NCBI GenBank assembly: GCA_009701305.1
Contig: WLKK01000007.1
Span: forward strand, 1-32,394
Reading direction: 5' to 3'
DNA length: 32,394 nt
From: Actinomycetota bacterium
Lineage (GTDB): Bacteria; Actinomycetota; Actinomycetes; Nanopelagicales; Nanopelagicaceae
The notes below the pieces were generated by a model that did no database searches, was not told the origin of the DNA, and saw only the letters and a list, made by a program, of their open reading frames with translations. Numbering within the stretch: position 1 is the stretch's first letter; each line of letters opens with the position of its first letter. This document shows positions 1,093 through 21,644 of this stretch, in pieces. The position numbers were made by a program, and so were the translations under genes.

Positions 1093-2157
1093 TTAACTAG
1101 GCGCCTTCTTGCAAACCACTGTATTCCAACTTCCCACTACGTTTAAGCTGTCAGTCAAGTGCAAATTGTCCATAACTTGAACTATGTCACCTATACCAAA
1201 ACCAGGTTTGACACTAAGGCCAGAAATCCAAATGCTGCCTTTAAATTTTTTAGGAATTGATCTTTGAATTAGCAATTGCAACGAAACTTTTGATGAGTCC
1301 GCGTTTGAATGGACTTGCAAAATCTCGCCTTCAAGGAAAACTGGATCGGATGTAACCAGCAAATTCGAATTCTGAAAATCATTACAAATATCTTTAAAGT
1401 TGCAGAATCGGCAATTTTCGAGTGATACTTTTGCGGGGGCACTTTGCTTGATCAAGAATCCTTCCGCACTCGAGATTGCATCCTTTATTTTTCTCATCGT
1501 CATTTGATCTATTGGAATTTCTTTTTCCTTCAAAGTAAAATCTCTAATTAACAACCTTGTCACTTCGAGATTGCTTAGTTCGTTCACCAACATTAAGTAA
1601 ATATGCATTTGCATAGAGAATGTCTCAGGATCTGTCACATTTCCTGTCTTGTAATCAACAATTTCTAGCCCAAAAGACGTTTCTTTCACAAGATCAGGTA
1701 TTCCCTTCAACTTGAGTTCTTCGCTTTCAAGGAATTTCTCCACCCATGGGAAAGGTTGCTGGGAAGAACCTATCCGTTCGGATGGTTCATCCATTATTTT
1801 CCACACTTCGCCTGAATTCAGTGCCCTTTCGACTAAATATTGAGTTGAAGATTTAACCGCAAAATATTTGGGCCACCGAATCGGCCGAGGCACGACCGTG
1901 TTGGGCCATTCGGATTGAACTCTTTCAAACTCCTCTTGTTCAACTGTATTCCAAATCTTGTTGAACAGAAATTCTCTATTCTCTTCTTTCAATTTTTTGA
2001 ATCCACCCTTATGTGCGGAAGCCAATACTTTGTGAGCAATTTTCCCAAGAGAAGATGGCAAATTCCCCTGATGTCGTTTCTTATCTGGATCAGCACTCCA
2101 TATGAATCGTTGAGGGCAACTTTGAAATACTTCCAGTTCGGACGGGGAGAATTTCAT
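1093..2157 (-). CDS. Cas4/RecB-like PD-(D/E)XK nuclease with probable Fe-S cluster
   Basis: A 354-residue protein. The nuclease core shows His42 (GKIAHKVL), Asp155 (GIPDLV), Asp168 and Lys170 (VDYKTG) and a Q-x-x-x-Y motif (Gln183-Tyr187), the arrangement of the RecB/AddB/Cas4 branch. Cys14 (SCPQRF) near the N-terminus and Cys249, Cys252 and Cys258 after the core (CRFCNFKDIC) make the four-cysteine pattern that holds a 4Fe-4S cluster in AddB and Cas4. About 90 residues follow and look beta-rich, perhaps an OB-like DNA-binding unit. It starts 15 bp after the stop of the helicase gene, so it is the last gene of a three-gene operon; no clear Shine-Dalgarno site is visible, so it may be translated by coupling. 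Inferred role: DNA cutting or processing for the helicase-based defence system, as a DruF/DruG-like partner. No Cas1/Cas2 or CRISPR is in the window. Confidence 0.8.
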   Translation of the reverse strand: MKFSPSELEVFQSCPQRFIWSADPDKKRHQGNLPSSLGKIAHKVLASAHKGGFKKLKEENREFLFNKIWNTVEQEEFERVQSEWPNTVVPRPIRWPKYFAVKSSTQYLVERALNSGEVWKIMDEPSERIGSSQQPFPWVEKFLESEELKLKGIPDLVKETSFGLEIVDYKTGNVTDPETFSMQMHIYLMLVNELSNLEVTRLLIRDFTLKEKEIPIDQMTMRKIKDAISSAEGFLIKQSAPAKVSLENCRFCNFKDICNDFQNSNLLVTSDPVFLEGEILQVHSNADSSKVSLQLLIQRSIPKKFKGSIWISGLSVKPGFGIGDIVQVMDNLHLTDSLNVVGSWNTVVCKKAPS

Positions 2158-2172
2158 AGATTTCGACAGTGA

Positions 2173-5100
2173 CTAGATATTCAACAAATTCGAAATGACG
2201 GAATAAGGGTTTCGGACTAACTGAAAAAAATCGCTCAAATCCGGATTCGGAATCCCAAACTTAAATTTGACTTCCGCTAAGAATCCCTGACTAATCTGTC
2301 CCCCAACACTGTCTCGCTGTGGCCAAAGTGGGTGGCCTATTAGAACTGCCTTTTGGTTGGTGCGGTTTATAAGTACTGGATATTGATTCTTGATAATCTC
2401 CATTTCAATTGGGAGACCCATTCCTGATTGCACTAGTGCCTCAGCACCGACAATGGACTTTTGAATCCAAGTTGAATGATCAAGTTGGCGGCCTAGTACT
2501 AGTGAGGTCATGTCCAGTGCAAGTCTCCAGTCTAATAACTGGTGACTGGATCTGTTTGTATAAGTTCTAAGGCAATCTGGGCAAGACGTGTCACAGCCAG
2601 AATGATTACTTGCTAGCCATCTGTCTCTCATTTCAGAGTCAATGACCGATAAAACCTTCTTGAAGTTTTTTGGTTTCGCAATCTCGATTGAGAATCCTGC
2701 ACCGTTTGCATGTGAATCAGCTAGGTATATTTGACCAGTTCGAGTCTCTGGATTGCTACCCAGTTTCTTTTTGAACCCAACCACAAATTCTTCTGCATCA
2801 ATTCCTAAAGTAATTTTACATGCATTTCGAAAAGCTTCAGCAAATGAAAGATACGCAGCCGTAGCACCAGGTACGAATGGATGATTCGTGGATCCAAGGT
2901 AGATTTCACCGTCTAAATGCGCAAATTCAACATCAGTAGTTTTTATGTCTATAAGTAGAGCATCTGTAGTTCTAATTTCACCGATAGCAATTTCTCTTTC
3001 AACGGAATCAGCAGGAATCTCTTGTCGTAAGAATGGAGGAAGGGTTTCAGGAACAACGACGGTTCCATCTTTGGCTTTAACACATTTGAAGTATTTTCCA
3101 CGATTGTCATTTATAGTCACTAGCCTTGCTTGTTCATATGTAGTGAGAGTTGCAGTGCCGAAGTTGTCTGTATTTGATGGGGATACGTCAGCCCCTAGAA
3201 CTAATCTTGGAGAAGATGCAGGGCTCGAGATATCACTCTCATCGTCGTAGTCTCTCGCCTTAAAAGTTGTTCGAAAACCAAGAGGTTCATACATTTCAAA
3301 TTCCGTCATAGGGTCAAGGCAAATTGGGCAAGGATGCTCATTTTGTGAGTTCAAGTAAACTGCTTCGCAAGACTCACAATGCTTCACCATAATTGGCTGT
3401 CCAAGTGGATCAATAGACACTGAGTTTGTAGCTGATAATCGATACGCTGCGAAACCGGCTACTGTATGAATTTGGTGGTCACGCGTAATTTCAGCGCCTG
3501 GAGCAAACATGCCAACAGCAGCATCAAGAGATCTGTCTGCCACTGAGCTCCGGTCTGAATCCAGTGAATTTTTTGGTTTTTGACCATAAAGAGATCTAAC
3601 TCGCGTAGGGAAGCCAAACATAGGTAATACTCCAAATTGAGCAAGAGCCTCGCTAAGTTCCATATCGGGACGATCTGCATCCAAGATGACAGAATCTATA
3701 TCTGCAATTAATTTAGAGGGTAAATTTGCACACCAGACATCGACGCTATTTTCAAATTCTGTCTGAATCAAAAGTGCCGAAACTACTTCCGACCAATTTT
3801 CGTCAAGGAGTAATCGACATATCGGAACCTTATATTTACTTGTCCAATCAGAAACAATTCCAAAACTTCCATGCAAACTTTCGGAAGTATGTTTTGGTTG
3901 TTTCAATTTAGAAAGTTGAAGAAATGAACGTCTCAACATCTCTCCACAAACGACTCTTCGTACGACACTCTCTCTTCCCATCTGCAAGAAAGGTTCTGGG
4001 GGTGTATCAGATGTCATTCGTTCTGGATGATTAAAATAGTACTCGTCGTGACTTCTATCCCTACATAAAGTGAGAGCGTAAGAAAGTGGTTGACCTAAAC
4101 GCCCTGCCCGGCCAACGCGTTGTTGATAGTTAAATCTTTGTGGTGGGACGTTCGCCATCATCGTGGCACGAAGTGATCCAATATCTACTCCGACTTCCAT
4201 TGTTGTGGTCACGCTTAGAACATCGATACCATGCGTTAACTCTGATTCCCTTGGCGAAGGCTTAAAAGCATCACCTCGGAACTGACGCTGGCGACTTCTT
4301 TGCAAAGCAAGCGGTTTGGTTTGTCCTGTCAACTCTTCAATTCTAAGACGTAGAGGTTTCTGCTTTGATAACCAGGCGAAATAATCATCTTCAAGAACAG
4401 ACTTTGCCTCAACCTCTTCAAGTAAAAACTGATGACAACTCCCTCTAACACAAATTCCGGCGGAATGATGGAGATGCAAGAAAGAGCATCGCTTGCATCT
4501 CCAGACAAATTCACTTGCCGCAATGGCATTTAACGGCAAATCATCCTTGCTTAAAATGGAAATATTCCAATCGCGTAAAACGCCAACTCCGTGCAAGGTA
4601 TCTGAAACCCAGACTTCCAGTTCACTTGCATCGATAGTTATTTCACCATTTAAATCAGAAACGGCCTTCAAATACTTCTTTAATGAGCCTGGAATTTTGG
4701 CGGAAACTCTTTCGGAACGAGATCCCTCGTAGCGACCGGCTAGACCTAGAATTCTTATTGAGGAATCGAGAATCTCCTGGAGTGCGCGCTTGTCAATTCC
4801 ATGAATCGACTCAAATTCGTGGCAGAAAGACAGAAAACCAACACCAACTGATTCCATGTCCCGTTCTGCTCTTCCATAGATGACTTCGCTTGCAATCTCA
4901 AGCTTAAGTGCGCGATCAAATGTACTTCTCATAATTCGACATTGTTCTTCGGAAACTTGTACCCATTCATCGTTTATAGGCTCATACGCCCGGTACCATG
5001 CAGTACCACCAATATTCTGAAATGAAGCTTTTGGACCCGCCGGAGAAACGCCTAGACCAACCAACTCTTTGGTAATGGAATTCACTAATCCCAACCAAGA

Positions 5101-7512
5101 TTTTCCTTCGAAACTATCTTTACTTTTAAGCTTTATAAGCTCCGCATCATCCTCTGCGTCCGTAGCGCCCTTAGATTTCTGGAACTCAAGTTTTGCTATC
5201 CTTCTTTGAGCTTCTAGGACAGTATCACCAGGTCCAGATTCAATTTCGATTGTCGCCACTTGTCGCAGAAGGTCTCGATGGTGATTCAAAGCTACGCCAG
5301 CAGCGGTACGTGCCGCATCATCTCTGGAATCAGTAAAAATGATGGTCTTGTAACTCAAAGGCTTCTTATCTACAGCCAATGAAAGTGATCTTGAGAGTTG
5401 GGATGCGAATACTTGAGTCGCTATTGCTTGACCAGTTGTGTGGGCTCGGATCGGAGTTCTTACAGCTGAGTCGTTCCAAAACTCATCCATCACATTGCTT
5501 TTCCCGCTACTTCCGCAAGCGGGACAAGTTTTTGGCAATGATGGAAACGTTTCTTTTGATGACATTGACACGTTTGCGACCAGTGTTATACCCGAAGTTG
5601 GGACTGGATTTGCAGGAAGTTGCATGAGTCCTAGTTGTGGATTAAATCCCACTTTCTCAAATCTAAATTCTATATTCTGCTTAGAACCACCCACCTCTTT
5701 AGTATGTGTCCAAGGGGCTACAGTCGAATCCATGTTTGGCCAATACCACCTGTATTGATTTGAATTTCTTCGAAAAACCGGTTCTTTGTTTCCTGAATCC
5801 GGAACGTTTCGGGATAGAGACCCAAGGAATGCATTGAATTGGTTTGGGTTTGGATCCGCGTGAACTACAAATCCACCGAGACTGATATCGCCGCAATCAA
5901 AACAATAAAGCAATTCGAGGACTCGACATCCACAAGAATCACAACTCACCGCAGGCAGATCGAATAATTTCCCGATTCGTCTTTCATCAAAGACGTATTC
6001 CGGATCTATACCCGAGCATGATCTATTGGAACAAGCCCATAACCCTCGGGGGGTTCGCATAAAAAGATGTGAGCGAATCGGGATCAAATTGGTACCAACC
6101 CCGCTAGAAAGTTTTTGAAGTGCTTTATCGAGTTTAAGATTAGAATCTATACCCTCACCAAACATGTACTTAGATACTTGCGATAACGACGTTGCAACTA
6201 CCTTTCCAGATTCATCAGAACAAGCTTGTGCAATAATTTGGGAAATCTCTTCTGAACTTAAATTCTCAACATCAATAGTTGAATCTTCTTTCATTTTGAG
6301 TGGCTCTAAATTTCTTGTCATTCCTCTTGTTATTAGAAATGAATCAGGTTTGGCCCCAAAAAATGATGCTGAAAAATCCTTTCCCCCATCGAGATCTGAC
6401 ATTGAAGCGCTTGTTGCGATAAATCGAATTTGTGGTGATTGCGGTGATATACCAATTCTTTGTAACAAGTTACGAATCACTAGCGCGACTTCTGATCCTT
6501 GAGTCCCTCTGTAGAGGTGCAATTCATCTATTACTAAGTGGAAAATGTTATTTGGATCGGCATTTATCCAATCTTTTGTCTGTTTAAATACGGTCTCTTC
6601 CTGCTCCCGCATGAGCATCGCGTTAAGCATCGAATAGTTCGTGACAAGAATATCTGGAGCAGAATGCATCATGTCCCAACGAGTGAGCATCTCTGATCCC
6701 ATCGGATCCGATAGTTGATCTATTGCATCATCACTTGAGTTTGCACTCCTAAACTCCTGGACTTCTCGCGACATATCTTTAAGTTCATTTGCAACTCTTA
6801 CGATTTTTTCTGCCCCACTCCTGAATGGCATCTCTCCACTTCCCATAGTGATACTTGTGTATCTTCCAAACCAAAACTGAAGTGAGTTAGTTTTTTCAGT
6901 AATTATTCGAATTGCTCTTCTAAGGCGAGTGATCTGATCTTCAACGAGGGCGTTCGTTGGATAAATAATCAATGTTCGAATTGCAGCGGGTCTCGTTTCA
7001 GACTCTCGAAGTGGTGACCATTTGGGATTGGAGTCACCCCACCAACGTTTAGCGGCAGGCTGTTCGCGCCAAGTTTTAGCTTCTAAAGCCAGGCGTAAGA
7101 GGATGGGAAGAAGAAAGGACTCGGTTTTTCCTGAACCTGTACCAGAAGTGACGACAATATTCTTTTCTTTTGAATTTGAAGAAAAAAGTACCCTCAAGGC
7201 CTGAGCTTGATGATCCCTGATATAGATTTCTCCGTCGCTCGCTGCAAATTTTCCAAATAGAGCACGTCCAACTAAATCTACTGTATCCCTTTCTAGGCCT
7301 AGCTCGTCTCCCAACTTGCGTAAGGAATGATTTGCGTCATACGGCATCACTGGCTCCAGAAAAATTTCTGTTGCAATCCGGCTATTTGCTAGAAGTAGCT
7401 TTCTCCTTTCTTGCATAAGTTTCGGAAACTTTAACCAGTACTGAGTATCAAAATACTTGAGATAGGCATCTATCAACTGGTCTTTCAAAATTGTTGGAGT
7501 GAGATTATTCAA
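2173..7512 (-). CDS. Large DExH-box helicase with DUF1998-type C-terminus (DruE-like defence helicase)
   Basis: 1779 residues. Walker A SGTGSGKT is at residues 123-130, after a Q-motif-like RDHQAQA near 99-105. The Walker B box is DELH (VIDELHLYRG, about 327-336). The second RecA lobe has TTTMEVGVDIGSLRA and QQRVGRAGRLG (about 1128-1140). Zinc clusters of CxxC type lie near 494-540, 664, 1007-1026 and 1378-1400. The end carries the DUF1998/MZB pattern C-DTS-CPDCLRTY...H..LDW (about 1640-1665). It starts with TTG at 7510-7512, eight bases after AGGAAG, and overlaps the end of the upstream gene by 8 bp. One polypeptide holds both helicase and DUF1998 parts, as in Druantia DruE, whereas DISARM splits them into DrmA and DrmB. 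Inferred role: the ATP-driven motor of an anti-phage complex. The DruE assignment is by architecture only. Confidence 0.85.
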   Translation of the reverse strand: MNNLTPTILKDQLIDAYLKYFDTQYWLKFPKLMQERRKLLLANSRIATEIFLEPVMPYDANHSLRKLGDELGLERDTVDLVGRALFGKFAASDGEIYIRDHQAQALRVLFSSNSKEKNIVVTSGTGSGKTESFLLPILLRLALEAKTWREQPAAKRWWGDSNPKWSPLRESETRPAAIRTLIIYPTNALVEDQITRLRRAIRIITEKTNSLQFWFGRYTSITMGSGEMPFRSGAEKIVRVANELKDMSREVQEFRSANSSDDAIDQLSDPMGSEMLTRWDMMHSAPDILVTNYSMLNAMLMREQEETVFKQTKDWINADPNNIFHLVIDELHLYRGTQGSEVALVIRNLLQRIGISPQSPQIRFIATSASMSDLDGGKDFSASFFGAKPDSFLITRGMTRNLEPLKMKEDSTIDVENLSSEEISQIIAQACSDESGKVVATSLSQVSKYMFGEGIDSNLKLDKALQKLSSGVGTNLIPIRSHLFMRTPRGLWACSNRSCSGIDPEYVFDERRIGKLFDLPAVSCDSCGCRVLELLYCFDCGDISLGGFVVHADPNPNQFNAFLGSLSRNVPDSGNKEPVFRRNSNQYRWYWPNMDSTVAPWTHTKEVGGSKQNIEFRFEKVGFNPQLGLMQLPANPVPTSGITLVANVSMSSKETFPSLPKTCPACGSSGKSNVMDEFWNDSAVRTPIRAHTTGQAIATQVFASQLSRSLSLAVDKKPLSYKTIIFTDSRDDAARTAAGVALNHHRDLLRQVATIEIESGPGDTVLEAQRRIAKLEFQKSKGATDAEDDAELIKLKSKDSFEGKSWLGLVNSITKELVGLGVSPAGPKASFQNIGGTAWYRAYEPINDEWVQVSEEQCRIMRSTFDRALKLEIASEVIYGRAERDMESVGVGFLSFCHEFESIHGIDKRALQEILDSSIRILGLAGRYEGSRSERVSAKIPGSLKKYLKAVSDLNGEITIDASELEVWVSDTLHGVGVLRDWNISILSKDDLPLNAIAASEFVWRCKRCSFLHLHHSAGICVRGSCHQFLLEEVEAKSVLEDDYFAWLSKQKPLRLRIEELTGQTKPLALQRSRQRQFRGDAFKPSPRESELTHGIDVLSVTTTMEVGVDIGSLRATMMANVPPQRFNYQQRVGRAGRLGQPLSYALTLCRDRSHDEYYFNHPERMTSDTPPEPFLQMGRESVVRRVVCGEMLRRSFLQLSKLKQPKHTSESLHGSFGIVSDWTSKYKVPICRLLLDENWSEVVSALLIQTEFENSVDVWCANLPSKLIADIDSVILDADRPDMELSEALAQFGVLPMFGFPTRVRSLYGQKPKNSLDSDRSSVADRSLDAAVGMFAPGAEITRDHQIHTVAGFAAYRLSATNSVSIDPLGQPIMVKHCESCEAVYLNSQNEHPCPICLDPMTEFEMYEPLGFRTTFKARDYDDESDISSPASSPRLVLGADVSPSNTDNFGTATLTTYEQARLVTINDNRGKYFKCVKAKDGTVVVPETLPPFLRQEIPADSVEREIAIGEIRTTDALLIDIKTTDVEFAHLDGEIYLGSTNHPFVPGATAAYLSFAEAFRNACKITLGIDAEEFVVGFKKKLGSNPETRTGQIYLADSHANGAGFSIEIAKPKNFKKVLSVIDSEMRDRWLASNHSGCDTSCPDCLRTYTNRSSHQLLDWRLALDMTSLVLGRQLDHSTWIQKSIVGAEALVQSGMGLPIEMEIIKNQYPVLINRTNQKAVLIGHPLWPQRDSVGGQISQGFLAEVKFKFGIPNPDLSDFFQLVRNPYSVISNLLNI

Positions 7513-10500
7513 TTCTTGCTCTTCCTAATTTTGCTGCGAGAAGTCTTGCGGTCTGCGAGTTAATATTATTGTAGATAAGCAATTTTCCAGTTGAATCTCG
7601 CTCTGGCAGTTTGCCTGATGCTAAAACAGCAGATCGGCCATACAGTCCTGGCAGAGTTGCACCTAGCGGGACAATCAATTTTTTATTTGCATAATCGAAA
7701 GCAAGTAGCGCTATACCTAATTCTGCTGCCTGGAAATGTTTAGCCAATTCTGCTGAAACAAAACTCACGGAATTATTTCTCAAGTCTTGCGCAGTTCTAG
7801 TTACATATCGATTACGATATTCTCCTTGGATTCTGTACCCGCCAACCTCGTCGATGTTTGAGGTTTCAACCCAAGAATTTGATGCTGGTTCAAACTGCGA
7901 TATGGATTCAAACCCAGGAACTGCTCTTTTAGGAAGAGATTCTACCAACTCAGCAATTGGAGGAAGAATGCTTAGCATTTCCAAGACAGGTTCTCGCAGA
8001 TAAGGAATATTCATTTTATTCGAAATTACTGCGATATCAGATTGTTTCGCCCCGATGATTCGTGGAAGTGTGAAGCTTTCGATCTCTTCAAAACTAATTA
8101 TCTTACCTTCGGTGAGAGAATTTCGTATTGATTCCAGTAGAGACTTGGAACAAAAACCTGTAATGACTATGTGATCACCGCAAGATGCAAAACTAGTGGG
8201 AGCAACTTCCCAACTTCTAATTTGAAAAAATTCATCTAATCGACAGTCAATGAGAGCAAGTTGATCGAGTTCAAGCGCGAATTGATATTTAAACAGCGCG
8301 CCAGGGTCTATGGCGCTCGCAAGCATTTCCAATGCCAAGCCCGACCCTCCACCGACATGCATTAACCCATCCAACACTTCCACGTGCCTTGTTCTTCTAT
8401 TTTCGACAGGTGGCATGTTCGAAAGCGAGACCCTTGGTGTCTGCACAACAACTGCTTCTGCTGAAGTTGCAACCTTCTTTGCTACATTTTCTTTTTTTAA
8501 CTTATTTCTTTCAGCAACCCAAGGATTTGCTGCAAATTTTTTGTGTAGGCCACAATATTTACAAGTGCCTTGAATGTTTCCTGAGTCACTCTTCTCAAAT
8601 CCTTGGCGAGATCTTGATGGAACCGTAGGAGGTATTACAAAATTATGGCGAGCGGTTCCGAAGCAACTTGCAGCTGTCACGCTTTGTAAAGCAATTTGCT
8701 CAAATTTGCGGTTTGTCATATTCCCACTTGGTTGGTTAACCCACCAAATTTTTTCATTGGGCGGGATTTCTTCTGCATAAATTTTTACATTTGAGGCTTT
8801 CTTAGTGATAGATCCATCCACAAAACTAGAAATTGATTCTTGCAGAGGAACTGTTTGCACTACACCTAATACAGTATCTGTAAAGTCATGCACTAATCTT
8901 TCAGAGGATTTCCAACTTGCCTCATCTATGGAATCTGAAGATCGCAATCTAAGTGTCTTTTCTGTTACGGGCTTGTTCTCAGAATCCATGAAAAGTTTAA
9001 CTGCGTAATTGTTATTGATGAGGGTCGATGCATCAATTTTCCATACTCCCGTAGCTTCATAAAATTCACGTGCTAGAACGACGGTTTCAGAATCATCCTC
9101 TATGCAGATTTGCATGGAGATTTTTTCTGCGCCTAAGACTGATCCACGGATTTCGAAGTCAATATCTGAATGCCATTTTGGTGGTCTTCCTGGCAATTGA
9201 AAACCCCCGGAGAAATTCAAAGTTCCACCGAAAATCGGCTTCAGGCCTTCCAGAGAGCCATCAGGAGAGAGTGACGAATTCTCGGGTGGCATGACAAGTT
9301 CCACGTTTATCGCCATTACCCATCCATCTGGAATTCCTGCAATGTCTTTAGCGCCTAGTACTGCCCATCCAGGCCGTGCGCACTTGCTCAATACTTCTGA
9401 AACTTTGGAAACAAAATTTCCATTATTTTGGATAGCCAAAAGAGTTCTGATGCCAATTTCCGTTCTTTCAACTTCTTGGTATCTACGAGATAATTCATCA
9501 TGTCTAAAAACAACTAGACGTTTCGGGTAACGTTCAATGTTAAATTCTCGACCAATGTCGACGGTCAGCATTCCCTCAAGTAGATCTCGCGACCCAACTG
9601 GAGGAAATGAAGTGTCTGGTCGCCACCAGCCTGATTGGTCCATGAGGACTTGAATTTTCGCGTCGGCCTCACCATCACGTCTCTTTATGCCAATTACGTG
9701 GCTTTCTTTACTAGAAATCGGCGCGCTAAATGAAAAATTGAAGTGCATCGCAGAACTTGGGAATGAAGTCTCAAAGGCTTCAAGCCGCACCTGAAAATCT
9801 TGCTTAGAAATTTGGTCGTCCTCAAGGTGCCCGCCAGATACAGCCCCATCCCACAATTCAAGTTCCCTACAAGCGATACTAGCGATGCGCGTTTTTGCGT
9901 CGTCTTTCTCCCATAGTTTTTGTAACGGTTTGCTTGGATTTCGATAGGAACTAAAGTATGAATCTTCTCTTTTCATCCATGCATCAATAATATTTTGCAT
10001 ATCGCGTTCTACTAAACTTGTAAATGGAGAAAAATTATTTTCTCTAAATAATTTTGGGAGTTTTTTGCGATCAACAGAGCGTACTAATGCTTGCGAAAGC
10101 GCAAAGCCCACATATTTGAAAGCAGAGATTGAGTAAGCCGTTCCAATTCCACGCTTACTACTTAAAAATTTGTCAAGCCAAAGATTTAGTGCGGACCAAA
10201 AAATAGTTGCAACTTTACGATAACTTTCTTCAACTATTTTTTTGTCAGGAAGTCCTAAATTTCCTTGAAGTCTCGGATAGTAAGCATTCGTCGAATACCC
10301 GCCTTCTCCCCCCATGTCGGAGGCAGATATCGTAAAAGCAAGGAGGAGTGGAATGTGTGGGTAACTTGGAACTGGATTTGATTTCTCCACCGCTTCATTG
10401 CAGTTGCGGTACCAAGTTCCCAATGAGTTTTTCATCTTGTCAAATAAAATTGGCAAATCTGAATGGTGAATTTGTGAATTAACACATTCGAAAATCGTCT

Positions 10501-10732
10501 CTTCTAAAGTCGCGGGATCAATTCCCAACTCATTGGAAACCTGCAACTGAACTTCTTCAGTAATCTCCAAATAAACGGGGCGATTCGCCATTTCTACAGT
10601 AAATAGCGCTCTACAAAGTGCCTCATTAAGCAAATCATAGGTCACTAGTTGTTCTGCAATCCCTGAGTCCGCCGGGATTTCCAAGGTCATGACATCAGGG
10701 TAATGGGTATAACTGACATTCAAAATAGTCAA
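7505..10732 (-). CDS. Large protein of unknown fold, defence-operon partner of the DUF1998 helicase
   Basis: 1075 residues with no family I can name. What is visible: a mixed alpha/beta N-terminal half rich in Trp and Tyr, a beta-rich middle (about 330-620), a CKYCGLHKK cysteine pair near residue 727 that may bind zinc, and a GGGSGLA glycine turn near 800. No Walker box, nuclease or methylase motif is evident, and no membrane segment. Its 3' end overlaps the helicase start by 8 bp, so the pair is translationally coupled and always co-expressed; a core role in the same complex is a reasonable inference (compare the DruF/DruG proteins of Druantia II, whose sequences I cannot align here). Start choice is uncertain: TTG at 10732 is the longest, TTG at 10723 has GGGA eight bases upstream, and the first ATG is codon 15. 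Confidence 0.8.
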   Translation of the reverse strand: MTILNVSYTHYPDVMTLEIPADSGIAEQLVTYDLLNEALCRALFTVEMANRPVYLEITEEVQLQVSNELGIDPATLEETIFECVNSQIHHSDLPILFDKMKNSLGTWYRNCNEAVEKSNPVPSYPHIPLLLAFTISASDMGGEGGYSTNAYYPRLQGNLGLPDKKIVEESYRKVATIFWSALNLWLDKFLSSKRGIGTAYSISAFKYVGFALSQALVRSVDRKKLPKLFRENNFSPFTSLVERDMQNIIDAWMKREDSYFSSYRNPSKPLQKLWEKDDAKTRIASIACRELELWDGAVSGGHLEDDQISKQDFQVRLEAFETSFPSSAMHFNFSFSAPISSKESHVIGIKRRDGEADAKIQVLMDQSGWWRPDTSFPPVGSRDLLEGMLTVDIGREFNIERYPKRLVVFRHDELSRRYQEVERTEIGIRTLLAIQNNGNFVSKVSEVLSKCARPGWAVLGAKDIAGIPDGWVMAINVELVMPPENSSLSPDGSLEGLKPIFGGTLNFSGGFQLPGRPPKWHSDIDFEIRGSVLGAEKISMQICIEDDSETVVLAREFYEATGVWKIDASTLINNNYAVKLFMDSENKPVTEKTLRLRSSDSIDEASWKSSERLVHDFTDTVLGVVQTVPLQESISSFVDGSITKKASNVKIYAEEIPPNEKIWWVNQPSGNMTNRKFEQIALQSVTAASCFGTARHNFVIPPTVPSRSRQGFEKSDSGNIQGTCKYCGLHKKFAANPWVAERNKLKKENVAKKVATSAEAVVVQTPRVSLSNMPPVENRRTRHVEVLDGLMHVGGGSGLALEMLASAIDPGALFKYQFALELDQLALIDCRLDEFFQIRSWEVAPTSFASCGDHIVITGFCSKSLLESIRNSLTEGKIISFEEIESFTLPRIIGAKQSDIAVISNKMNIPYLREPVLEMLSILPPIAELVESLPKRAVPGFESISQFEPASNSWVETSNIDEVGGYRIQGEYRNRYVTRTAQDLRNNSVSFVSAELAKHFQAAELGIALLAFDYANKKLIVPLGATLPGLYGRSAVLASGKLPERDSTGKLLIYNNINSQTARLLAAKLGRARIE

Positions 10733-10770
10733 TCCCTAACTTTGTCAGTGGGATCAGATAAGCTCCTGCT
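10733..10770. promoter_or_regulatory. 38-bp divergent intergenic region between the defence operon and the methyltransferase gene
   Basis: Only 38 bp separate the start of the 1075-aa gene (minus) and the methyltransferase ATG (plus). Promoter elements for both directions must overlap each other or reach into coding sequence. On the minus strand CTGACA and TATTTT with a 15-bp gap form a weak candidate; on the plus strand TTGTCA is followed by GATAAG. Neither is convincing. The compact divergence suggests the methyltransferase can affect expression of the operon. Confidence 0.35.
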
Positions 10771-12159
10771 ATGAGCTTTAGATTTGTTGACCTTTTTGCT
10801 GGAATTGGTGGATTTCATGGCGCACTCGGCGCCCTGGGGGGGGAATGTGTTTACGCCTCTGAAATTGATAAAGCAGCAGCAAGAATCTATTTGAGAAATT
10901 GGGGAATTGAACCTGAAGGGGACATAACCCTCGCGGCCAACGACACCACGATGAATGTGCCAGATCATGACGTTTTGGTTGGCGGGTTTCCATGCCAACC
11001 TTTTAGTAAGTCAGGAAAGCAAAAGGGCATGGAAGAGGCTCGAGGAACTTTGTTTTGGAATATTGCGAAAATTATTGAAATTAGAAAACCAAAAATAGTC
11101 ATACTTGAAAATGTTAGAAATATAGCGGGTCCAAGGCATGCTCACGAATGGGAAGTCATTATTCAGACCTTGCGTGAATTAGGTTACCGAGTTAGTTCAA
11201 AGCCTTTTGTGGTTTCCCCACATCGAATTCATCCTTCATTCGGCGGACGACCACAAGTTCGTGAGCGGGTTTTTATAGCAGCAACAAGATTAAACAGGAC
11301 CACAGGGAAACTTCACGAAGAACCACAGCTTCCCTCAAGGGAACAATTTGAAGCAAATTGGGATTCAAAGAAGTGGAAACTTGCTAAAGACTTACCCTTA
11401 GATCCAATGACTGCAAAAGAAAAGGCTAGCCTGAAACTTTCAGAAGCAGAAATTGAATGGCTTGATGCATGGAATGAATTTTTACAAATATATCGCGGAA
11501 ATAATGCTGGCAAAAACCCACCAGGCTTCCCGATTTGGGTCGATGATTGGATTCACACAAAGAATCTGAAAATTCCCCGTGGGACTCCTAAATGGAAAGA
11601 AAATTTCTTGCGTAAAAATTCGGAACTATATTCTGCAAATAAAAAAGTTCTAGATGCTTGGCTCAAGAAATATAACAACCTTTCTCACTTTCCTCCGAGT
11701 AGGAGAAAATTTGAATGGCAAGCTCAGGATGCTAAGACTATTGCAGACACTATTTTACATTTCCGCCCTTCAGGGATTAGAGCGAAGAAAGCTACGTACG
11801 TTCCGGCCCTAGTGGCAATCACTCAAACATCGATTATTGGAAAGCACAAGAGGAGAATTTCAGTCAGAGAGGCAGCAAGGTTGCAGGGCTTCCCCGATTG
11901 GTTTGATTTCTTGGACCAAAGAGAAGCAATGTCGTACAAACAACTTGGAAATGCCGTAAACATTGGAGCTGTCTATAACGTAATTAAGTCTTTAGTTATT
12001 AGAGATATTGATCTGCTTTCAAAGTATCCAGAATTAACAAAAGCAATTCTAGGCGCCCCAAACTCACCTGATAACCAGTTGATGGAGTTCAAATCTCATT
12101 CGTATAAAGAAAGAACTAATTCCACCACAATTTTCCAACCTAGACTTGTCGATCTATAG
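10771..12159 (+). CDS. DNA cytosine-5 methyltransferase (Dcm family; DruM-like or type II R-M methylase)
   Basis: 462 residues with all main C5-methyltransferase motifs in canonical order: I FVDLFAGIGGF (5-15, AdoMet binding), IV GGFPCQPFSKSG with catalytic Cys75, VI ENVRN (113-117), VIII QVRERVF (162-168), IX SVREAARLQGFPDWF (from about 364) and X YKQLGNAVN (about 389-397). The stretch of about 190 residues between VIII and IX is the target recognition domain; the target base sequence cannot be read from it. The enzyme appears intact. It lies back to back with the helicase operon and faces a probable restriction endonuclease (7 bp between stops). It could be the self-marking methylase of a Druantia II-like system, the partner of that endonuclease, or both. 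Confidence 0.93.
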   Translation: MSFRFVDLFAGIGGFHGALGALGGECVYASEIDKAAARIYLRNWGIEPEGDITLAANDTTMNVPDHDVLVGGFPCQPFSKSGKQKGMEEARGTLFWNIAKIIEIRKPKIVILENVRNIAGPRHAHEWEVIIQTLRELGYRVSSKPFVVSPHRIHPSFGGRPQVRERVFIAATRLNRTTGKLHEEPQLPSREQFEANWDSKKWKLAKDLPLDPMTAKEKASLKLSEAEIEWLDAWNEFLQIYRGNNAGKNPPGFPIWVDDWIHTKNLKIPRGTPKWKENFLRKNSELYSANKKVLDAWLKKYNNLSHFPPSRRKFEWQAQDAKTIADTILHFRPSGIRAKKATYVPALVAITQTSIIGKHKRRISVREAARLQGFPDWFDFLDQREAMSYKQLGNAVNIGAVYNVIKSLVIRDIDLLSKYPELTKAILGAPNSPDNQLMEFKSHSYKERTNSTTIFQPRLVDL

Positions 12160-12943: not shown

Positions 12944-13263
12944 AAAGTAAGTATGAGCAAATTAGGGCGTTTTTGCAGCTGAGGCAGACCCTTTAAATAT
13001 AGTAAAAGTTAATTTAAGGCTAGTTACACGTAGGAAATCTGAATTCCTTTATCTATTAGTCCAAAATTAGATCCTTCTAAACTATGGATTTTCTAGTCTT
13101 TGACCAAAGGATTTATGGACAGAAATCGAAAATTGGCCTCAAATCATGAAAAATCGTCTATCTTGTCTGCATGTAATACCCGCGGCCCGACGAGCTTCTA
13201 AAAATAGAAATTTTAGATATGCCCCCACCCGCACGATCACTTCGTGCTGTTTGGGGGATTTTT
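12944..13263. other. AT-rich intergenic stretch, no gene seen
   Basis: About 320 bp between the divergent endonuclease and DUF2075 genes. I find no RNA gene, hairpin terminator or clear operator. TATATT near 12997 on the minus strand could be the -10 box of the endonuclease gene, but there is no matching -35. An in-frame GTG/ATG extension of the DUF2075 gene reaches back to 13219 and lacks a ribosome binding site. Confidence 0.4.
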
Positions 13264-15120
13264 ATGCGAGCTTTACTTCGCAAGACCGCAACCAACCTAA
13301 AGCAGCTTGGGAGTGATGGGTCATTGGTCGCTCAGTTATCAAATCAGATGTTCCATGTCGTCGGGAATAGTCCATCACCTGCAGAAAGTCGTTCCTGGGA
13401 ATCGAGCTTGCCTGTATTGGCTCAGGACCTAATAGATTGCGGGCTCGGCGATGTAGACGTTCTTTTGGAATATCAACTTCCTTATACAAGTAAGAGAATC
13501 GACGCAATAGTTTGCGGTAGCGACCCAAAAACTGGGAAACCTTCTCTAATTGTTGTCGAACTAAAGCAATGGTCATCTTTCGAACTGGTTGCGGGAACCA
13601 CTGATTTAGTTTCCATCGGTGCTTATGGTAACCAACCACTACTTCACCCTGCAGAACAGGTAAAACGTTATTGTGAACACTTAGAAGATTTCAATAGATT
13701 CATAGAAAATAGCGACGCAAAACTCATGGGGGTCGCTTATTTGCATAACTGGCTTGCAGTTAGGAATGCAGCTATTGATAAAATTCCAACATCGGTTCAT
13801 GGTCAAGTTTTCCTTGGAAGTGAAAAATCCAAGTGGCATGATTTCCTCAAGGCAAACCTCTCTGCGAATAATTCAACTCTCGTTGCAGATGGTCTATTAA
13901 GTGGGAAGCTTGCACCAACAAAGCAACTTATGGATCTCGCTGCCGATGAAATTCGTAGTCAAAATCAATTTGTTCTGTTAGATGAACAAAAAGTTGCTTT
14001 CTCTCTCGTGATGAAGGCAGTCCGCGAATCCAACGAGGCTAATACCAAGACAGCAATTATTGTCACCGGTGGTCCAGGCACTGGGAAAAGTGTTATTGCC
14101 CTCGCTTTGCTCGGTGAATTATCAAGAGAAGGCAAGACCACGTTGCATGCAACGGGATCGAAAGCTTTTCGAAATTCTTTGCGGAAAATCGCAGGAAATA
14201 GAGCTCCGCAGGTTCAAAAAATGTTTTCCTATTTCAATTCCTTTATGACTGTTGCGCCCAACAGTCTTGAGGTGCTTATCTGCGATGAGGCGCATCGAAT
14301 ACGTGAAACTAGCGCTAATAGATATACAAAAGCTGATAATCGCACTGGTACGCCACAGGTGAACGAACTTCTTCGTACTGCACGTGTTCCTGTATTTTTC
14401 CTAGATTCACACCAGGTGGTGAGAAAAGGGGAGCTAGGAACACCCGAATATATTGAGAAGTCCGCTTCTGACTTAGGGATTAAAACTTATCGCGTTGATT
14501 TAGATGGACAATTTCGTTGTGGGGGTTCGAGACTTTATGAAAATTGGATTCTTGGCCTCTTGGATCTTAATGAACAAGCACCAAGTATTTGGGAAGAAGA
14601 TCTCAATTTCAAAGTCTCTGTCGTTGATAGCCCGGAAGAGATGGAGTCTGTTTTAAGCGAAAAATTAAAAGAGGGATACAAAGCCAGAATTACAGCAGGA
14701 TTCTGCTGGACTTGGAACGACCCGACCAAAAATGGAACATTGCCCTTGGATGTAAAAATCGGAACATGGCAAAAGCCTTGGAATGTAAAAGGTGACCGTG
14801 GAGTCGGCGGATATATGTCTGGTGAACTATGGGCTATTGATCCAAAAGGTTTTGATCAAATTGGTTGTGTGTATACCGCTCAAGGTTTTGAATATGACTG
14901 GAACGGTGTGATTTTTGGCCCTGACTTAGTTTGGCGAAACGGCCAATGGCTAGGAGTGATAGCAGGATCAAAAGACCCAGCAATGCGTGGGGTTTCGCAA
15001 GAAGCCTTTGATCAATTAGTTCGCAATACTTATAAAGTTCTTTTGACGAGGGGATTATCTGGAACTTTGGTTTATTCCGTAGATCCAGAGACTCAGAAAC
15101 ATTTAAAGCAATTAATTTAG
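13264..15120 (+). CDS. PD-(D/E)XK nuclease fused to a DUF2075 (Schlafen-type) P-loop ATPase/helicase domain
   Basis: The open frame starts at 13219 (633 codons), but the ATG at 13264 is preceded by GGGGGAT with good spacing, so I choose it (618 residues). Positions below count from 13219. The N-terminal third has a nuclease-like KRIDAIV (Asp95) followed by VVELKQW (Glu114-Lys116), a D...E-x-K active site. The ATPase part shows Walker A TGGPGTGKS (about 283-291), Walker B ICDEAHR (about 354-360), a FRCGGS motif and the closing NTYKVLLTRGLSGTLVY typical of DUF2075. Membership in the defence island and the nuclease-ATPase fusion suggest an autonomous DNA- or RNA-targeting defence effector. No partner gene in the same direction and close spacing is seen, except possibly the small protein 142 bp downstream. 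Confidence 0.85.
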   Translation: MRALLRKTATNLKQLGSDGSLVAQLSNQMFHVVGNSPSPAESRSWESSLPVLAQDLIDCGLGDVDVLLEYQLPYTSKRIDAIVCGSDPKTGKPSLIVVELKQWSSFELVAGTTDLVSIGAYGNQPLLHPAEQVKRYCEHLEDFNRFIENSDAKLMGVAYLHNWLAVRNAAIDKIPTSVHGQVFLGSEKSKWHDFLKANLSANNSTLVADGLLSGKLAPTKQLMDLAADEIRSQNQFVLLDEQKVAFSLVMKAVRESNEANTKTAIIVTGGPGTGKSVIALALLGELSREGKTTLHATGSKAFRNSLRKIAGNRAPQVQKMFSYFNSFMTVAPNSLEVLICDEAHRIRETSANRYTKADNRTGTPQVNELLRTARVPVFFLDSHQVVRKGELGTPEYIEKSASDLGIKTYRVDLDGQFRCGGSRLYENWILGLLDLNEQAPSIWEEDLNFKVSVVDSPEEMESVLSEKLKEGYKARITAGFCWTWNDPTKNGTLPLDVKIGTWQKPWNVKGDRGVGGYMSGELWAIDPKGFDQIGCVYTAQGFEYDWNGVIFGPDLVWRNGQWLGVIAGSKDPAMRGVSQEAFDQLVRNTYKVLLTRGLSGTLVYSVDPETQKHLKQLI

Positions 15121-20459: not shown

Positions 20460-21644
20460 GTGAAAATTATTGATCTCGGCGCTGATTTAGAAAGCATTGT
20501 TGCGCAGGAGTTTAAATCCTTGCATTCAGGTGGTGGGCGAAGTTCAATTCAGGGTGGCCAAAGTGCTGCAGATAGCGCGCTTGCTCAGTTGAATATTGCA
20601 GGTTATGCAAAGGATCGATCAGAAGTATGGCCCCGTGAGGCACGAGGGGCTTCAGTGCTATCTCCTTACATTCGTCATAACTTGTTGCCTTTGCAAAGAG
20701 TCTGGGATCACGTGGCTAAGGCGCCGTTTTCAGATCGTGAAAAATATCGTGATGAATTGTTATGGCAAGAGTATGCGCGCCATCTATATGCTCGAATCGG
20801 CACACGACTATTTAGCAATCTGCGTTTTGAACAAATCTGGGATAAGCCAGGTAACGGTTGGCCGGAAGGTATGGCCTGTGTTGATTTTGCTACAAATGAA
20901 CTAGTCGAAGATGGCTGGTTAGTTAATCAAACCCGGATGTGGTTGGCCTCGCACTGGACGGTACGTAATGAGTTTGGTTGGTTGCATGGTCAAGAAGAGA
21001 TGTATCGCCACTTACTTGATGGCTCGCGGGCGGCAAATCTTTTAGGTTGGCAATGGACTGTTGGAACCGGTACCGGCAAGCCCTATGGCTTTGCGCGTTG
21101 GCAAGTACAAAAGCGTGCGCCAGAACTTTGTGGTGGGTGTGCACTGAAAAGTAAGTGCCCGATTCAGGAATTTCCGGATGAGGTTTCCTTAGATGCGGCT
21201 CCTCATGAAGCGCTACTTTTGGCTGACCCAGATCTTGCGGCAACTACTGGGCCAATTATAGTTAAAGAAAATAAAACACCTGCGATGGTTTTGTTAACGG
21301 TGGATTCATTAGGAGATGCAGACCCAGCGTTGGTGGCGAATCCAAAATTACCGGTGGCTTTTGTCTTTAATGAAAATGCACTGGCAAAACTGCAGCTATC
21401 TTCAAAGCGGATTTATTTTTATCTGGAAACTTTGCAGGATTTAGCGACCCGGCGAAACTTAACGGTTTATCTCGGTGATCCCTATGAGTTTGCGCGGCAG
21501 AATTCTGTAGCGATTACTTATGCGCCAGTTCCGAGTTTTGCTAAATTCAAAGATTTAGCGCAGATTCATCCATTCCCTTGGTTGAAATCACCACATCCGC
21601 TTTCGGTTCGATCCTTTAGCGCTTGGCGAGGGAAATTAAAATAA
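20460..21644 (+). CDS. Photolyase/cryptochrome-related flavoprotein with reversed domain order
   Basis: 394 residues, GTG start nine bases after AAGGA. Residues about 60-220 match the photolyase FAD-binding domain: SPYIRHNLL, ELLWQEYARHLY, GWPEG...VDFATNEL, NQTRMWLASHW and LLDGSRAANLLGWQWTVGTG. Next comes a cysteine knot CGGCALKSKCP; with one Cys at about 139 there are four Cys in total, which might hold a cluster. The last roughly 120 residues (MVLLTVDSLGDADPALVAN, VAFVFNE, RIYFYLETLQDLATRRNL, VYLGDP) look like the alpha/beta antenna domain that normally comes first in photolyases. If real, the order is FAD domain then antenna domain, a permuted enzyme. It could repair UV lesions or sense light. 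The FAD part is firm; the permutation is inferred by eye. Confidence 0.8.
   Translation: MKIIDLGADLESIVAQEFKSLHSGGGRSSIQGGQSAADSALAQLNIAGYAKDRSEVWPREARGASVLSPYIRHNLLPLQRVWDHVAKAPFSDREKYRDELLWQEYARHLYARIGTRLFSNLRFEQIWDKPGNGWPEGMACVDFATNELVEDGWLVNQTRMWLASHWTVRNEFGWLHGQEEMYRHLLDGSRAANLLGWQWTVGTGTGKPYGFARWQVQKRAPELCGGCALKSKCPIQEFPDEVSLDAAPHEALLLADPDLAATTGPIIVKENKTPAMVLLTVDSLGDADPALVANPKLPVAFVFNENALAKLQLSSKRIYFYLETLQDLATRRNLTVYLGDPYEFARQNSVAITYAPVPSFAKFKDLAQIHPFPWLKSPHPLSVRSFSAWRGKLK

Follow-up and report, generated by a model that had tools for sequence, protein, structure and literature searches.

Photolyase-family proteins in which the FAD-binding domain comes first and a photolyase domain last were first reported in 2022 (mBio) from marine Synechococcus and Cyanobium, as the pair Phr4 and Phr5 and as Phr6 (PMC9426592). 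Loss of phr4/phr5 lowers survival under UV-C, the two genes confer UV-C protection on E. coli, and (6-4) activity was predicted for Phr4/5/6 from their Fe-S cysteines and from a phenotype under UV-C rather than UV-B; their nearest relative, Phr7, has a single-stranded DNA substrate (PMC9426592). As cited in later papers, Xu et al. 2021 present SPL/Phr7 proteins as short photolyases that repair cyclobutane pyrimidine dimers (CPDs) in single strands, and passages of PMC9649867 describe SPLs as CPD-repairing enzymes without an N-terminal domain that have been proposed, with an Fe-S cluster, as the ancestor of the family. The word "actinobacteria" is absent from the main text of PMC9426592; among the papers listed by our literature searches, it was the only relevant one on permuted photolyases, and none dealt with an actinobacterial form.

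Here we describe such a gene in a 32,394-nucleotide stretch of DNA (the window) from a lake actinobacterium of the Nanopelagicaceae (contig WLKK01000007.1, assembly GCA_009701305.1). Like Phr4/Phr5 and Phr6, its product has the FAD domain first and the photolyase domain last, in the following arrangement.

20460..21644, + strand: reversed-order photolyase, whole ORF of 394 amino acids with a GTG start, supported by full-length relatives
20547..21116, + strand: FAD-binding (catalytic) domain, residues ~30-219, from PF03441, profile alignment and PDB sequence matches
21252..21641, + strand: antenna-type alpha/beta domain at the C-terminus, residues 265-394, from hhalign to ordinary N-domains and from models

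Residues 99-207 match Pfam FAD_binding_7 (PF03441; E 3.6e-10; 40 bits, family cut-off 27), and the photolyases 1tez and 1owl match residues 28-206 in a phmmer search of the PDB (E ~2e-13). When a profile of 46 reversed-order sequences was aligned with a profile of at most 35 ordinary photolyases, residues 2-208 paired with residues 201-411 of the ordinary enzyme (probability 99.7) and residues 267-350 with its residues 33-121 (probability 95.2), the two alignments running in swapped order. The C-terminal domain by itself scored 68.3 against ordinary N-domains (hhalign, probability 97.1), a score that none of 60 column-shuffled controls reached (maximum 23.6), and the C-terminal domains of distant Deinococcus forms behaved in the same way (67.1, shuffle maximum 24.8). 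Pfam gave no direct match of PF00875 (DNA_photolyase) to the C-terminal part of the window protein even at E <= 1; the second ORF of a split gene in Deinococcus sp. QL22 does match PF00875 (E 2.3e-4), at 21.6 bits and hence below the 26.6 cut-off, and its residues 1-136 match ordinary N-domains with probability 96.7. PF04244 has no match in the window protein, which begins with its FAD domain, unlike the FeS-BCP (PhrB-type) proteins. The reversed-order layout is thereby confirmed far beyond chance, and the original prediction of an FAD domain first and an antenna-like domain last is borne out by the swapped alignments, with modest agreement from structural models.

AlphaFold2 gave a partial model of the full-length protein (mean pLDDT 63.7, pTM 0.71), and since residues 117-252 were poorly modelled (pLDDT < 50), the geometry of an Fe-S site is not visible in it. 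In VIA-align, photolyases and cryptochromes made up 49 of the 50 rows listed for this model, at Z values of only 4.1-4.9, with either residues 265-394 superposed on photolyase residues 5-168 or residues 1-226 on the photolyase's C-terminal half (4cdn, 201-460). Modelled separately, the C-terminal domain reached a pLDDT of 76.6 and took a Rossmann-like fold whose best matches were photolyase N-domains (Z 8.2, 8.1, 8.1 and 7.8, with other folds just below at 6.3-7.0). Foldseek likewise returned a photolyase as the best hit to the antenna model, at E 6.2e-3 and with none at E <= 0.001, and universal-stress and other Rossmann-like folds followed close behind. The predicted structures are thus consistent with an antenna domain and lend it modest support, and it is the sequence profiles that carry the claim.

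A scan for promoters and terminators around the photolyase gene gave nothing above shuffled controls. Elsewhere on the contig, the genes at 1093-12159 make up a defence island similar to Druantia type II.

1093-2157: DruK-like PD-(D/E)XK nuclease
2173-7512: DruE2
7505-10732: DruF2
10771-12159: DruM2-like cytosine methylase

A Schlafen group 3 helicase protein (13219-15120; PADLOC match to candidate PDC-S41, E 8.9e-20) adjoins these Druantia-like genes.

A search of genome contigs recovered 19 loci with a reversed-order gene, whose hosts include Nanopelagicaceae, Aquiluna/Microbacteriaceae and Actinomycetospora. Seventeen of them were aligned, with L038 and L046 omitted because contig ends truncate them, and these share 51-95% identity with the window protein. 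The gene is patchy among 60 relatives, because only five (G000, G001 with two copies, G012, G013 and G028) carry it at full length, 2/5 in its own genus. Across 396 sampled actinobacterial genomes, full-length copies occur in 26, the source genome included, at E <= 1.4e-131 and spread over 11 family groups, and the next match after these carriers covers the FAD domain only (E 7.1e-21). More distant single-ORF forms lie on plasmids of Deinococcus wulumuqiensis, AJ005 and psychrotolerans, and the split form of Deinococcus sp. QL22 (L085:4812-6103), an FAD ORF followed by an antenna ORF with a 4-base overlap, resembles the phr4/phr5 arrangement of Synechococcus. Two scans of viral contigs found no relatives, and in phage records there were FAD-domain matches only, 0/10 of which cover 80% of the query. 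At a contig end in genome G031, a C-terminal fragment with one internal TAG (L007) is a possible pseudogene of the reversed-order family.

Since the two halves are separate ORFs in Synechococcus (PMC9426592) and in Deinococcus sp. QL22, one could suspect that the reversed order in this one genome stems from an assembly error, from a frameshift or from two genes fused by chance. We regard this explanation as extremely improbable: the same single ORF recurs in the 26 genomes, it is present in many independent assemblies, isolates included, and the actinobacterial copies form one clade with 100/100 support in an unrooted FAD-domain tree. The independent full-length copies rule it out.

Four cysteines of the window protein are putative Fe-S ligands.

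20877..20879, + strand: C140, first putative ligand, inside the FAD domain; C in 46/46 sequences
21129..21158, + strand: C224-x2-C227-x5-C233, three further putative ligands at the domain junction; each in 46/46

The C-x2-C-x5-C motif between the domains and the fourth cysteine in the FAD domain had both been predicted at the outset, and they correspond to C224/C227/C233 and C140, respectively. Their conservation in homologues, on which that prediction hinged, proved complete: all four are invariant in 46 non-redundant actinobacterial sequences (a count that leaves out the partial L046 and the fragment L007) and are kept in 3/3 reversed-order sequences from Deinococcus. The spacing, 84/3/6, is close to the 85/3/6 of Phr4/5/6 (C169, C254, C257 and C263), which we compared by their published description and which differ in being cyanobacterial, often encoded by two ORFs and predicted to be (6-4) enzymes. 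In the FeS-BCP/PhrB (6-4) photolyases, which share a four-Cys Fe-S site, the conserved first Fe-S cysteine falls in the alignment column of C140; these proteins differ in having PF04244 at the N-terminus, the ordinary domain order and a His-His pair, and the copy in the same genome as the window protein has its cysteines at 331/419/422/435, a spacing of 88/3/13. The alphaproteobacterial SPLs that we examined lack the cysteine cluster, unlike the window protein. SPL/Phr7 proteins do resemble it in beginning with the FAD domain, which in the window protein starts near residue 30 with no alpha/beta domain before it.

E283, W286, N349, M353 and W392 of the ordinary photolyase, numbered as in the A. 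nidulans enzyme from an alignment with its PDB sequence, are residues that we take to be its CPD contacts. Their counterparts in the window protein are as follows.

20754..20756, + strand: E99, counterpart of E283; E in 46/46
20763..20765, + strand: W102, counterpart of W286; W in 46/46
20925..20927, + strand: N156, counterpart of N349 (CPD type); N in 46/46
20937..20939, + strand: M160, counterpart of M353; M in 42/46
21054..21056, + strand: W199, counterpart of W392; W in 46/46

The window protein thus shares the E/W/N/M/W active site of Class I/III CPD photolyases, with both domains homologous, and differs from them in that they carry the antenna N-terminally and have no Fe-S cysteines. These active-site residues are also compatible with the CPD repair described for SPLs. 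Three FAD-site positions are changed throughout the actinobacterial clade, with Q103 at R287, S189 at D382 and A64 at T240, each in 46/46 sequences, and these changes weigh against a CPD-type reading. Ordinary CPD photolyases show a stronger profile similarity (190 over 197 columns) than the PhrB type (74 over 126).

These residues bear on the proposal, made for Phr4/5/6, that the reversed-domain proteins are (6-4) photolyases akin to FeS-BCP in their Fe-S cluster. The four cysteines, the first aligned with that of PhrB-type proteins, and the response of phr4/phr5 to UV-C and not UV-B (PMC9426592) speak for it. Against it stand N156 and M160 where PhrB-type proteins have His-His and Leu, as the protein in the same genome illustrates (His-His at the N349 position against N156/Q157/M160 in the window protein), the weaker profile similarity to that type, and the PF04244 protein already present in 23 of the 26 carriers, and we consider (6-4) activity unlikely. 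The CPD-type residues make CPD repair more probable than (6-4) repair and, together with a (6-4) niche that is usually occupied, favour CPD-type photorepair, so that the evidence here speaks against the (6-4) assignment of PMC9426592. By its sequence, the window protein is most likely a CPD-type, light-driven repair enzyme in which an Fe-S cluster has a structural role.

The source genome (1.48 Mb in 110 contigs, 88% complete) also encodes an ordinary photolyase of 449 amino acids (contig C1) and the PhrB-type (PF04244) protein (contig C67). This combination is usual among the carriers: PF00875 is found in 26/26 carriers and 133/370 non-carriers, and PF04244 in 23/26 and 25/370, respectively. 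Among PF00875-bearing genomes alone, PF04244 is still far more frequent in carriers (23/26) than in non-carriers (24/133; Fisher p 7.7e-12, with kinship ignored). The reversed-order enzyme is an addition to the two usual photolyases and not a replacement for them. A conserved operon with PhrB-type genes was considered and rejected, since such a gene is adjacent in only 2 of 25 other carriers (G153 and G218). TIGR03550 (CofG), sought as a marker of an 8-HDF antenna, had no match in the source genome, which at its level of completeness is weak evidence only.

The presence of an ordinary photolyase in all 26 carriers is a counterpoint to the CPD reading, as that enzyme already occupies the CPD niche, and it would also fit a cryptochrome-like light receptor with no role in repair. 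Such a function could be in keeping with the altered FAD-site positions Q103 and S189 and, according to PMC8591293, with an uncharacterised Rhodoluna gene, cpf2, that is co-expressed with phrB; cpf2 might be an actinobacterial reversed form. Because the CPD-contact residues are conserved and the cyanobacterial genes shield E. coli against UV-C (PMC9426592), we think a receptor rather improbable.

The analysis establishes the architecture of the protein, its homology, its distribution and the conservation of its cysteines and active-site residues. We propose with moderate confidence that the window protein is a photolyase-family flavoprotein with reversed domains and a structural Fe-S cluster that performs light-driven CPD-type repair, probably in a separate niche; its cofactors, light dependence, lesion and niche are what we infer in the following scheme. 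The N-terminal FAD domain would bind both the damaged base pair and the flavin that acts in catalysis, C140, C224, C227 and C233 would hold the Fe-S cluster at the junction of the FAD domain with the next segment, and the alpha/beta antenna domain would sit C-terminally instead of N-terminally. Blue or near-UV light would be absorbed by FADH- or relayed by an antenna pigment, and would drive an electron transfer to the pyrimidine dimer that splits the dimer. Since the carriers already possess an ordinary CPD photolyase and in most cases a (6-4) photolyase of the PhrB type, the enzyme probably serves a niche that the others do not. One example would be DNA that is single-stranded or hard to reach, as has been reported for SPL/Phr7, its nearest relatives.

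The unrooted FAD-domain tree that gave the actinobacterial clade included PhrB-type rows, and in it the Deinococcus forms failed to group together and attached to a very long PhrB branch. In a second unrooted tree without these rows, which also leaves out 14 ordinary rows and two Persicobacter ordinary-order rows, the actinobacterial, Deinococcus and Persicobacter sequences and the SPLs lie together on one side of the ordinary photolyases (100/100), the Deinococcus forms are one group (96/85), and a single clade of actinobacterial and Deinococcus forms was not rejected (p-AU 0.458). Given the long branches, we are unsure of the deep joins in these trees.

The C-terminal Z-domain of SPLs matches the antenna domain only weakly and in a profile-dependent manner. 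It scored 29.7 against the Deinococcus antenna profile (shuffle maximum 19.2, 0/100 as high) and 29.5 against a combined profile (18.9, 0/100), but 16.7 against a profile of all reversed forms (5/100 shuffles as high) and 20.3 against ordinary N-domains (1/100). The C-terminal domain of the Persicobacter proteins exceeded its shuffle maxima with the combined (31.1 against 18.8), all-reversed (23.7 against 21.5) and ordinary (23.9 against 21.3) profiles, and its score of 14.9 with the Deinococcus profile was not significant (12/100). These scores are only suggestive of a Z-domain that may be a decayed antenna.

In Persicobacter (Bacteroidota; L104:2357-5024 and L105:2234-5753), an FAD-first gene directly precedes an ordinary-order photolyase-family gene, which in L105 is followed by a PhrB-type-like ORF. 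Alphaproteobacterial SPL genes from Peteryoungia and Ruegeria (L086, L101) adjoin genes of the AarF/ABC1/UbiB kinase family.

The reversed layout itself is already known, and what is new here are the actinobacterial and Deinococcus branches and the evidence against a (6-4) function. Being frequent among actinobacteria and occurring in Deinococcus too, the layout extends beyond marine picocyanobacteria and becomes a widespread enzyme type, and its single-ORF members, which include those of Aquiluna sp. IMCC13023 and of two Actinomycetospora strains, should lend themselves better to study. It also bears on the proposal of antenna-less SPLs as ancestors of all photolyases and cryptochromes, as some FAD-first proteins do have an antenna, placed at the other end. 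We tentatively raise the possibility that the reversed forms of actinobacteria, Deinococcus and cyanobacteria and the SPLs are one old branch with a C-terminal antenna, of which the Z-domain would be a decayed remnant. If this is true, SPLs would descend from a permuted two-domain enzyme or be its cousins, and would not be primitive photolyases that, as has been proposed, never had an antenna.
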